A stretch of 10,027 nucleotides of DNA, taken from NCBI GenBank assembly GCA_001795345.1, contig MGON01000007.1, positions 207 to 10,233 on the forward strand, written 5' to 3'. Position numbers and translations under genes: made by a program. Below are positions 5,108 to 7,750 of the stretch, piece after piece (within the stretch, counting starts at the first letter, position 1; each line of letters starts with the position of its first letter). The notes under the pieces were generated by a model. It had not been told where the DNA came from. It saw only the letters and a list, made by a program, of their open reading frames with translations, and ran no database searches. This DNA comes from Chloroflexi bacterium RIFCSPLOWO2_02_FULL_71_16. Lineage in GTDB: Bacteria; Chloroflexota; Limnocylindria; P2-11E.

Positions 5108-5179
5108 CGGCCCGTAGCTCAGTGGTAGAGCGGCAAACTCATAATTTGCTGGTCCCAGGTTCGATCCCTGGCGGGCCGA
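5108..5179 (+). tRNA. tRNA with CAU anticodon, probably elongator tRNA-Met
   Basis: A full cloverleaf: 7-bp acceptor stem CGGCCCG/CGGGCCG, D stem GCTC/GAGC, anticodon stem GCAAA/TTTGC with loop CTCATAA (anticodon CAT), and T arm CCAGG-TTCGATC-CCTGG, with discriminator A at 5179. The first pair is C1-G72, properly paired, and the anticodon stem lacks the three G-C pairs of initiator tRNA, so this is not the initiator. The CCA end is not encoded (CCG follows), so a CCA-adding enzyme must finish it. A CAU anticodon can also belong to tRNA-Ile2, modified to lysidine; the C4-G69 and C5-G68 pairs resemble the E. coli Ile2 determinants, so Met is likely but not certain. Confidence 0.95.
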
Positions 5180-5181
5180 CC

Positions 5182-6612
5182 GTGGAGGAGGGACAGCTGG
5201 TCGGTCTCGACGACGTCCAGCGGGCCCGAGAGGTCGTCGCTCCTCACATCCAGCGGACGCCGCTCCTGTCTAGCCGCCACCTCGGCGAGCGCATCGGCGC
5301 CCAGGCCTGGCTCAAGGCGGAGAGCCTCCAGCGGACCGGCTCCTTCAAGCCGCGCGGTGCGGTCTACGCGGTCGCGACCATGCCCGAGGCCGACCGGCAG
5401 CGGGGGATCGTGACCATGAGCGCCGGCAACGCGGCCCAGGCGATCGCCTACGCCGGCCTGGCGGTCGGTGCGCGCGTCGTGGTCGCCATGCCGGAGACCG
5501 CCCCGGCGACCAAGGTGGCGGCGACCCGCGGTTACGGCGCGGAGGTCCGCTTCGGCGCCGACACGACGAAGCTCATGCCCATCGTCCGCGAGCTCGAGGC
5601 CGCCGGGATGCGGTTCCTGCACCCCTTCGACGACGACGCGATGATCGCCGGGCACGGCACCGTCGCGGTCGAGATCCTCGAGGATCTGCCCGACGTCGAC
5701 CTCATCGTCGTGCCGGTCGGCGGGGGCGGGCTCATCGCGGGCATCGCGGTCGCGGCCACGGCCCTGCGGCCGGGCATCCGCGTCGTCGGCGTCGAGCCGG
5801 AGGGCGCCCCGGGCATGCGCCGGGCGCTGGACGCCGGCCGCGTCGTCCCGCTCGAGCGGCCGAGGACCATCGCCGACGCGCTCGCGGCGCCCTTCGCCGG
5901 CGAGCGGCCCCTCGAGATCGTCCGGGGGCTCGTCGAGGACGTCGTGCTCGTCAGCGACGACGAGATCGCCGAGGGCGTCCGCTTCCTGGCGGCACGGGCC
6001 CGGCTCGTCGTCGAGCCCGGCGGCGCGGCGGCCGTCGCCGCGCTGCTCGCGGGCCGCGCCGGCGTGCGTCCAGGGGAGCGGGTGGCCGTCCTGGTGAGCG
6101 GCGGGAACGTCGACGCCGCCCGGCTCGCGGAGATCCTGGGAGCCGACGGACCGGCGCTGTCCAGTACGCCGGGCGGACCCGGGCCTCGGCCGCAGGGAGC
6201 GGACCGCCCCCGGGCGACGCTCTACGCGGACGGCGCGGCGCGCGGGAACCCAGGCCCCGCCGGCGCCGGGGCACTGCTCCTGGACGAGCGTGGGGACACG
6301 CTCGCCGAGCTCCACCTCGCGCTGGGGCGGGCGACGAACAACGTGGCCGAGTACCAGGCGCTGATCCTCGGCCTCGAGGAAGCGAAGAAGCGCGGCATCG
6401 AGCGCATCGACGTGCGGATGGACTCGCTCCTGGTCGTGCGCCAGATGCAGGGCCTCTGGAAGATCAAGCATCCCGGGCTGCGGCCCCTCGCCGTCCGCGC
6501 GGGCGCGCTCCTGGCGGAGTTCGGCGACCGCACGATCGAGCACGTGCCCCGCGAGCAGAACAGCGGGGCCGATCGGCTCGCGAACAAGGCGATCGACGAG
6601 GCGGGCGGGTGA
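5182..6612 (+). CDS. Threonine/serine dehydratase-type PLP enzyme fused to RNase HI
   Basis: One uninterrupted frame, 476 residues from the GTG at 5182. Residues about 8-322 are a fold-type II PLP enzyme like biosynthetic/catabolic threonine dehydratase or serine racemase. It has TGSFKPRGA with the Schiff-base Lys56, an SAGNAAQ loop at 80-86, the phosphate-binding GGGG at 180-183, an EPGGAAAVAAL stretch and the closing VSGGNVD. It has no ACT regulatory domain. After a linker of about 20 residues rich in Pro/Gly (about 323-343), residues 344-474 are a complete RNase HI with the four acidic catalytic residues D350 (YADGAARGNPGPAG), E390 (NNVAEY), D414 (RMDSLLVV) and D464 (SGADRLANKA). I find no in-frame ATG, GTG or TTG between the halves, so this is a true fusion. 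The GTG lies 2 nt after a tRNA; a CTG at 5197 behind GGAGGAGG is an alternative start. The next gene overlaps by 4 nt. Confidence 0.9.
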   Translation: MEEGQLVGLDDVQRAREVVAPHIQRTPLLSSRHLGERIGAQAWLKAESLQRTGSFKPRGAVYAVATMPEADRQRGIVTMSAGNAAQAIAYAGLAVGARVVVAMPETAPATKVAATRGYGAEVRFGADTTKLMPIVRELEAAGMRFLHPFDDDAMIAGHGTVAVEILEDLPDVDLIVVPVGGGGLIAGIAVAATALRPGIRVVGVEPEGAPGMRRALDAGRVVPLERPRTIADALAAPFAGERPLEIVRGLVEDVVLVSDDEIAEGVRFLAARARLVVEPGGAAAVAALLAGRAGVRPGERVAVLVSGGNVDAARLAEILGADGPALSSTPGGPGPRPQGADRPRATLYADGAARGNPGPAGAGALLLDERGDTLAELHLALGRATNNVAEYQALILGLEEAKKRGIERIDVRMDSLLVVRQMQGLWKIKHPGLRPLAVRAGALLAEFGDRTIEHVPREQNSGADRLANKAIDEAGG

Positions 6613-7403
6613 GCGTCGAACCCATCGAAGGTCTCATCGGCCGCGCGCTCGGCGCCGAGGTCCACGACGTGCGGCGCGAGCCGCTCGGGACCGCGGGTGG
6701 AGTGGAGCGTGAGCGGGTCCGATTCACGAGCGACGGCGCCGAGCGCACGGTCCTCTTCGAGCGGATGTCGCCGCGGCGCGCGCTCGAGGTGCAGCTCCTC
6801 CCATTCCTCGCTCGCAAGACCGACCGCGTGCCGGCCGTCCACGCGCGGGGCGTCCCGCCCAAGCACGTGCCGGCCCCGCAGTGGCTCCTGGTCGAGGACC
6901 TCGCCGGCGCGCCGAGCGCGTGTGACGGCGACGTCAGGGCGATCCTCGACGCGAAGCTCGCCGTGGAGCAGGCCGTCCGCGCCGACGCTCCGGCGCTGCG
7001 GGCGCTCGGGGTGCCCGAGCGCGGACCGGACGCGATCGCGGCCGAGATCGCGGAAGCCGTCGCGGCCGAGGCGGACGCGGACGGGATCCGGGAGGAGGCA
7101 CGAGAGTCGGCGCGACGGATCACGAAGCTGCCAGTCGCGCTCGTCCACGGCGACCTGCGCTGCGACAGCGCGGTCACGACGGATCGGGGCGTGGTCCTCC
7201 GAGGATGGGGGAGCGCCTACATCGGCTGCGCCCTGCTCGACGTGGTGCGGCTCGTCGCGGACGTGGTCGAACGCGGCGAGGCCGTGCTCGGCATCGGGCT
7301 CTCACGCCTCTACGCCGAGCGGGTGGGCATCGTGCTGCCGACCGAGGTCCTGAGGGGTGCCGAAAAGCTCGACCGGCTGGCTCGCCGCTACCTGGATCGA
7401 TAG
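6609..7403 (+). CDS. Aminoglycoside phosphotransferase-like protein with degenerate active site
   Basis: 264 residues from a GTG overlapping the previous TGA by 4 nt (GTGA). The layout follows the APH/choline kinase fold. An N-lobe has RTVLFERM at 46-53 where the ATP lysine strand should be, a helix with Glu60 (RALEVQLLPFLA), and a hinge-like WLLVEDLAG at 92-100. A helical middle section follows, then LVHGDLRCDS at 178-187 and a segment that aligns with the metal-binding 'IDWGDA' loop but reads LRGWGSAYIG (197-206), then LLDVVRLVADV. The catalytic Asp182 is kept, but the Asn of HGDxxxxN is Ser187, the metal-binding Asp is missing, and the N-lobe lysine is Arg or absent. It may be a pseudokinase or use another chemistry. 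Operon position after the dehydratase-RNase HI gene suggests co-expression; no function can be named. Confidence 0.72.
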   Translation: MSVEPIEGLIGRALGAEVHDVRREPLGTAGGVERERVRFTSDGAERTVLFERMSPRRALEVQLLPFLARKTDRVPAVHARGVPPKHVPAPQWLLVEDLAGAPSACDGDVRAILDAKLAVEQAVRADAPALRALGVPERGPDAIAAEIAEAVAAEADADGIREEARESARRITKLPVALVHGDLRCDSAVTTDRGVVLRGWGSAYIGCALLDVVRLVADVVERGEAVLGIGLSRLYAERVGIVLPTEVLRGAEKLDRLARRYLDR

Positions 7404-7425
7404 CCCCCGAGGGCGTCGAAACCGG

Positions 7426-7431
7426 TAGAAT
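7426..7431 (+). promoter_or_regulatory. -10 box of rnpB
   Basis: TAGAAT at 7426-7431 is followed by 7 nt (GGTCCAT) and then G7439, the first base of RNase P helix P1. That is the expected distance from a -10 box to a transcription start, so promoter and RNA 5' end confirm each other. No clear -35 box. The promoter begins 23 nt after the preceding stop codon. Confidence 0.65.
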
Positions 7432-7438
7432 GGTCCAT

Positions 7439-7741
7439 GTCGAGCGGTCCGGATGGTCGCGACGCCGAAAGGCGGCGAGGAAGGTCGGGGCTGCAGAGGG
7501 CAGGGTGGCGGGTAACGCCCGTCCGCCGCGAGGCGAGGACCAGCGCCACAGTGACGATGCCGCCGAGAGGCGGAGTGAAACGCGGCAAGCTCCACCCGCA
7601 GCAAGATCGAATAGAGGGACCATGGCGTGGCCCGCGCCGTCCCTGGGTCGATCGCTAGAGGCGGAGGGTGACCTCCGATCCCCAGAAGGATGACCGTCAC
7701 CCCGCAAGGGGGACAGGACCCCGCCTACAGGGCCGCTCGAC
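7439..7741 (+). ncRNA. rnpB: RNase P RNA (type A, compact)
   Basis: This is the catalytic RNA that matures tRNA 5' ends. Helix P1 pairs 7439-7450 with 7730-7741 (12 bp, one G-U); P2 pairs 7452-7458 with 7692-7698. The conserved GAGGAAGGTCGGGGCT (7477-7492) forms helix P4 with ACCCCGCCT (7718-7726), keeping the bulged U at 7485. Further marks are GGGTAACGCCCG (P8 region), P9 as CGCC-GCGA-GGCG, ACCAGCGCCACAG, a short P12 CCGCC-GAGA-GGCGG, AGCAAGATCGAATAG, and P18 as CGGAGG-GTGA-CCTCCG (7663-7678). The GGT that binds tRNA CCA lies at 7647-7649 in the L15 region. GGGC (7498-7501) can pair with GCCC (7631-7634) as P6, which marks type A. P13 and P14 appear absent, giving about 303 nt against 377 in E. 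coli. Short ORFs in this interval are spurious. Confidence 0.95.
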
Positions 7742-7750
7742 ATCCTTCTG
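7683..7750 (+). repeat. 10-bp perfect inverted repeat spanning the rnpB 3' end
   Basis: CAGAAGGATG (7683-7692) and CATCCTTCTG (7741-7750) are exact reverse complements. The left arm lies between helices P18 and P2 inside the RNase P RNA; the right arm begins at the last base of P1 and covers the 3' trailer. No T-run follows, so it is not a standard terminator. It could form only in the unprocessed transcript. Confidence 0.7.

Follow-up and report, generated by a model that had tools for sequence, protein, structure and literature searches.

A single gene in the 10,027-nt Chloroflexota stretch analyzed here (the window) joins a PLP-dependent dehydratase of the PALP type to a ribonuclease HI, and we consider it probable (roughly three chances in four) that it is a young, lineage-specific fusion of two adjacent genes, nearly neutral in effect, whose product would carry two enzymes that are tethered but work independently. 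As the initial annotation had claimed, one frame (positions 5182–6612, forward strand) runs through both domains, with 476 codons open and then TGA, an arrangement that lies far outside chance expectation; the calculated mass of the polypeptide is 49.4 kDa.

The dehydratase part is assigned to residues 1–319 (5182–6138), the interdomain linker of 24 codons to residues 320–343 (6139–6210) and the RNase HI part to residues 344–476, with the TGA included in its coordinates (6211–6612). Directly 5′ of the fusion gene and, like all the features named here, on the forward strand lies a tRNA-Met gene with a CAT anticodon (5108–5179 by Rfam RF00005; 5108–5181 by ARAGORN). The fusion is followed by an APH-like phosphotransferase gene (6609–7403; PF01636, E 3.7e-6), whose GTG overlaps the fusion TGA (GTGA), and by the class A RNase P RNA gene rnpB (7441–7743; RF00010, 183.8 bits), which ends the conserved gene order. 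The exact N-terminus of the fusion is uncertain, since the frame is also open in the 5′ direction through the tRNA-Met gene up to GTG 5083 and the codon aligned with the dehydratase starts of some relatives is CTG 5197 rather than GTG 5182. A canonical dehydratase start is lacking in 8 of the 20 relatives L002–L021, from three genera (L002, L004, L006, L010, L013, L015, L016 and L018), which have no in-frame ATG, GTG or TTG from the end of the tRNA up to the conserved start. The codon at that place is ATC in six of them and CTG in two, each time after a GGAGG stretch; L002 and L013 have in-frame starts within the tRNA, and the other 12 relatives have canonical dehydratase starts. Judged from these codons, AUC/CUG initiation of the dehydratase gene is possible in the family.

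The N-terminal domain matches PF00291 at residues 20–307 (E 4.1e-79, 266.4 bits against a curated cut-off of 35). Over its whole length it aligns with the nearest solved relative, the catabolic threonine dehydratase 2gn0 (E 4.7e-69), sharing the GSFK lysine motif and the GGGG loop and differing in having SAGNAAQ where 2gn0 has SAGNHAQ. The PLP lysine (K56, in S-F-K) and the phosphate loop (G180–183) align with those of 2gn0; the PLP domain is complete, with Lys56 and GGGG as had been proposed at the outset. Unlike the catabolic threonine dehydratase/serine racemase group (PF00291), the fusion has an RNase HI at its C-terminus. No NCBIfam cut-off was reached among the 25 families listed of 44 matched (best scores 297.6 with 496 needed and 295.7 with 378.75 needed), and by these cut-offs the protein is not placed in any named family with a single substrate, threonine ammonia-lyase included. 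The same assembly encodes a dehydratase of 417 aa that is extended at its C-terminus, lies beside a leuD-like frame and was taken by eye for the biosynthetic type, as well as a third paralogue of 334 aa; because of these two, the fused dehydratase is probably not the biosynthetic one. Codon 93 (5458–5460) is CTG (Leu) in the window, whereas the variant protein P0002 described below has Arg and 14 other proteins compared have R, K or Q at this position; Leu93 is either a strain polymorphism or a sequence error.

The C-terminal domain matches PF13456 (RVT_3) at residues 350–470 (E 1.5e-25, 89.9 bits against a cut-off of 21.6). Its four carboxylates (D350, E390, D414 and D464) align with those of the solved Rv2228c domain 3hst, in agreement with the complete RNase HI that the initial annotation had read in the same residues, and the domain is predicted to be an RNase HI of the Rv2228c type that would cleave the RNA of RNA–DNA hybrids. 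The proposed check for a second rnhA or rnhB found none: the fusion is the only RNase H gene detected in the assembly (131 contigs) with the PF13456, PF00075 and PF01351 profiles, but since this assembly is 78% complete, a second gene may be missing from it. In fact, RNase HII was found in 27 of the 28 genomes of the family, the exception being the window's own assembly, and it may merely be missing from this draft.

Comparison with the family supports the suggestion, already made from the window, that a separate operon pair became fused. The dehydratase and rnhA genes are adjacent, with a readable junction, in 21 of the 27 other family genomes (L002–L021 and L030), as separate genes in the same order in all 21. 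At each of these junctions the rnhA start (GTG in 18, ATG in two, TTG in one) lies one base before the dehydratase TGA, giving a 4-nt overlap in a different frame. L030 (genome G003) is counted among the 21 for its readable junction; its dehydratase is damaged (a two-piece match, with residues 42–93 unmatched). The separate pair thus has the domains, order and neighbours of the fusion, but is made as two proteins instead of one. The APH-like gene follows the pair in all 21 relatives and rnpB in 19 (L004 and L013 stop short of it); on the same strand, tRNA-Met lies ahead of the pair in 15. The conserved run, corresponding to 5108–7743 of the window, is tRNA-Met, PALP, rnhA, APH-like gene and rnpB, with divergent parAB upstream in many loci; the genes for RNase HI and RNase P RNA are near neighbours in this family. 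At the protein level, 12 separate PALP/rnhA pairs were inferred from equal-sized contigs and a shared source, and one pair (P0156/P0278) was dropped, its sources being different.

The remaining six genomes include two in which one of the genes stands at the locus without the other: in G010 the dehydratase is directly followed by the APH-like gene, with no PF13456 match, and in G018 rnhA comes directly after two tRNAs and the dehydratase is absent. The G018 locus (L137, 1334–1875) has two tandem tRNA genes, the second with a lower score (41.9 bits), and then rnhA; in P0335, from a different source, rnhA is likewise called from tRNA-like sequence. In G021 the contig stops inside the dehydratase (L023) and no PF13456 match was found; G001, G005 and G008 have no PF13456 match either, and their best dehydratase matches are weaker (E 3e-52 to 3e-66). 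The junction script found no rnhA in L022–L029: L024 ends with its contig, and five more distant relatives of the class (L025–L029) have no rnhA match beside PALP.

The fusion junction can be compared base by base with L002, L003 and L004, the three closest relatives of the window among the genomes compared. Between residue 319 (after IL or FL) and R344 of the RAT motif the window has 72 nt, and each of the three relatives has 11 nt, including a stop and a start. With this net difference of +61 nt the reading frame is displaced by one position, which puts rnhA in the dehydratase frame. In the ancestral arrangement, as seen in relatives, the dehydratase TGA overlapped the rnhA start by 4 nt, and the pair was probably translated in a coupled fashion; the comparison shows that the junction has since gained a net 61 nt in the lineage of the window, with the loss of both stop and start and the entry of rnhA into frame. 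The product would begin with a PLP dehydratase of the catabolic threonine dehydratase/serine racemase type, continue through a tether and end in a C-terminal RNase HI. With neither active site damaged, the two enzymes most likely remain functional, each independently of the other. The fusion has probably been kept since it does little harm and fixes a 1∶1 ratio, and not because the two reactions cooperate.

The linker that occupies the place of the stop/start overlap is rich in Gly and Pro and has no stop in any forward frame. A codon scan upheld the claim that it contains no in-frame ATG, GTG or TTG; among CTG, ATT, ATC and ATA the only in-frame match is CTG 6157 (6157–6159), a candidate rare internal start, and the nearest in-frame canonical starts 5′ of the RNase H domain, GTG 6094 and GTG 6082, are both within the PALP domain. 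Third-position GC is 0.76 in the linker, a short slice of 25 codons that includes residue 319, against 0.96 in the PALP and 0.95 in the RNase H part, in keeping with a young stretch. Residues 321–340 have a pLDDT of about 30 in an AlphaFold model, and the ten-residue blocks of the RNase H part from 341 on have 81–98. The PALP part is poorly modelled (mean pLDDT 67.8, pTM 0.44), since the alignment used (A3) had only four stand-alone PALP rows, and its residues 11–59 are as low as the linker, so that the low linker values are only suggestive. (Another alignment, A2, was left unused because its rnhA rows were misplaced onto the PALP part, as confirmed by a test of MAFFT settings.) With this weak evidence from the model, the linker is probably a flexible tether of 24 residues.

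As to the source of the linker, no repeat family covers it within 5900–6420, which rejects a copy from nearby. A copy from elsewhere in its own genome was also rejected: besides itself, the linker gave only short, chance-like matches (25 of 26; the best 17 bp, E 0.04). That it is an older extension of the separate rnhA was likewise rejected, as five six-letter words of the linker occur only in P0001 and P0002 among all proteins compared, the 120 nearest stand-alone rnhA proteins listed included. A short SSxPAA tail, perhaps an early step toward the linker, closes three of the nearest stand-alone dehydratases (P0122, P0124 and P0129) but is lacking in P0123, which is equally close.

An assembly or sequencing artefact at the junction is very improbable. 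It would draw on the draft state of the genome, on the lack of the fusion in all 27 other family genomes (though six have no readable pair junction) and on the odd join of the PALP/rnhA pair in gene-catalogue entry P0005 (see below). A frameshift or single-base error is rejected by the junction itself, which differs by 61 nt and not by one base, with the frame kept open, and by a second contig that agrees with the window. This contig, of 9745 bases (that of the window has 19311), encodes P0002, the same 476-aa fusion, differing from the window protein only at residue 93 and in the reading of the first codon; the cluster of P0002 counts 10 members, and P0002 and the window may share a sampling site or a set of reads. 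The initial annotation had named a stop and a separate rnhA start in relatives as the sign of such an error. These were indeed found, and they show the ancestral state; that the fusion is an error does not follow, because of the size of the difference and the second contig with the fusion.

The proposed novelty of the domain pair was borne out among the matches listed in the searches performed. Residues 1–476 were spanned only in the window's own genome among 177 genomes of the class, with no other complete fusion among the matches listed, and the same was true of the matches listed for 400 genomes sampled from the phylum (some of them shared with the class set); a complete fusion in a near relative would rank high in those listings. 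The protein search with the RNase H part, judged by the best 120 of 8000 candidates scored (proteins of ∼262–833 residues), found PF00291 in P0002 and P0005 only, the rest being 116 RNase H/PF00300 proteins, P0003 with two RNase H domains and one plant protein. In the best 120 of 8000 candidates scored with the whole protein, P0002 and P0005 had both domains and 118 had PALP alone. P0002 is thus the only other complete fusion among the best 120 listed, and distant fusions may have been missed by searches of this depth. P0003 (301 aa), named ribonuclease HI, reads as two tandem RNase H domains. The 348-aa P0005 likewise joins PALP to a downstream RNase H within a single frame, but roughly the final third of its PALP is missing, and PALP sequence replaces its first RNase H strand, with an Asp present where the catalytic spacing calls for the first one of RNase H; it has the look of a deletion or a chimera and not of the same event.

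The closest parallel is provided by the RNase HI/CobC fusions of Actinomycetales (Rv2228c, MSMEG_4305, SCO2299), which likewise combine an RVT_3 RNase HI with an unrelated metabolic enzyme over a variable linker. In these proteins RNase HI forms the N-terminal part, ahead of a CobC-type acid phosphatase (PF00300), whereas the window's fusion, in one Chloroflexota lineage, has RNase HI at its C-terminal end, after a PLP dehydratase. Pfam gave no PF00300 match in the fusion, and its score for the bifunctional RNase H/acid phosphatase family (NF005567) is 160.9, with 326 needed. PMC7466739 comes to the conclusion that drift most probably fixed MSMEG_4305. A search of open-licence literature with narrow terms found no paper naming both partners of our fusion, which is a real and new domain pairing of a familiar kind. 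Elsewhere in the window, one frame on the reverse strand (292–963) carries ThiS/MoaD-type and MoaE domains; here the two subunits of molybdopterin synthase are apparently fused.

Selection on the two parts bears on the possibility that one domain has been an inactive passenger since the fusion. The pN/pS of the fused gene against L002–L004 is 0.32–0.35 for PALP and 0.23–0.43 for RNase H, compared with 0.26–0.27 and 0.27–0.28 for the unfused L002 against L003 and L004, and 0.12 and 0.02 for the close unfused pair L003–L004. Against the more distant L006 the fused and unfused genes hardly differ, with 0.42 and 0.49 for the fused gene and 0.40–0.44 and 0.50 for unfused L002/L003. The fused gene is somewhat above L002 in five of the six nearer comparisons, which, together with Leu93, could be read in favor of a passenger. 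All its values are nevertheless well below 1, catalytic residues are present, no stops occur, and the variant P0002 has R93 at the position concerned. There is no clear decay in these comparisons, a mild relaxation is possible, and an inactive domain is very improbable.

It is unlikely that a separate RNase HI is also made by internal initiation, at the linker CTG or at either GTG within the dehydratase. In its favor are the in-frame position of CTG 6157, the AGGGGAG that ends three bases ahead of GTG 6082, and the apparent use of CTG or ATC as the dehydratase start in several family genomes. On the other hand, rnhA starts with ATG, GTG or TTG in all 21 readable relatives, the GGGAG stretch is as far as 14 nt before CTG 6157, and there is no upstream stop to release ribosomes for reinitiation. 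An adaptive fusion of cooperating enzymes, partners in the relatives and one protein here, appears improbable. It is favored by the conserved pair with its overlap in 21 of the 27 other family genomes and by the enrichment of short overlaps among subunits of heteromeric complexes, as reported in PMC10666635. Against it stand G010 and G018, with one gene lacking at the locus, and the presence in the same run of the APH-like gene (with a GTGA overlap of its own) and rnpB, which points to a general operon order. Apart from the conserved overlap, itself a weak hint, nothing points to a functional link. To our knowledge there is no metabolic connection between the dehydratase and RNase HI. The earlier idea that the fusion links amino-acid catabolism with hybrid removal finds no backing other than co-residence in one polypeptide, with G010, G018 and L025–L029 counting against it. 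Improbable, too, in our estimate is a true functional unit, e.g. an RNase HI tuned by amino acids sensed at the PLP site, in which the overlap would keep stoichiometry and the fusion would be the end point.

Overall, the fusion is a well-resolved case of a stop/start overlap between operon genes becoming a fused protein, in which the separate state, the neighbours and the fused product are all visible and the codon composition of the linker is still unlike that of the domains. It would be of greater importance only if the two activities influence each other. In genome annotation, a dehydratase name could conceal the RNase HI of the lineage.
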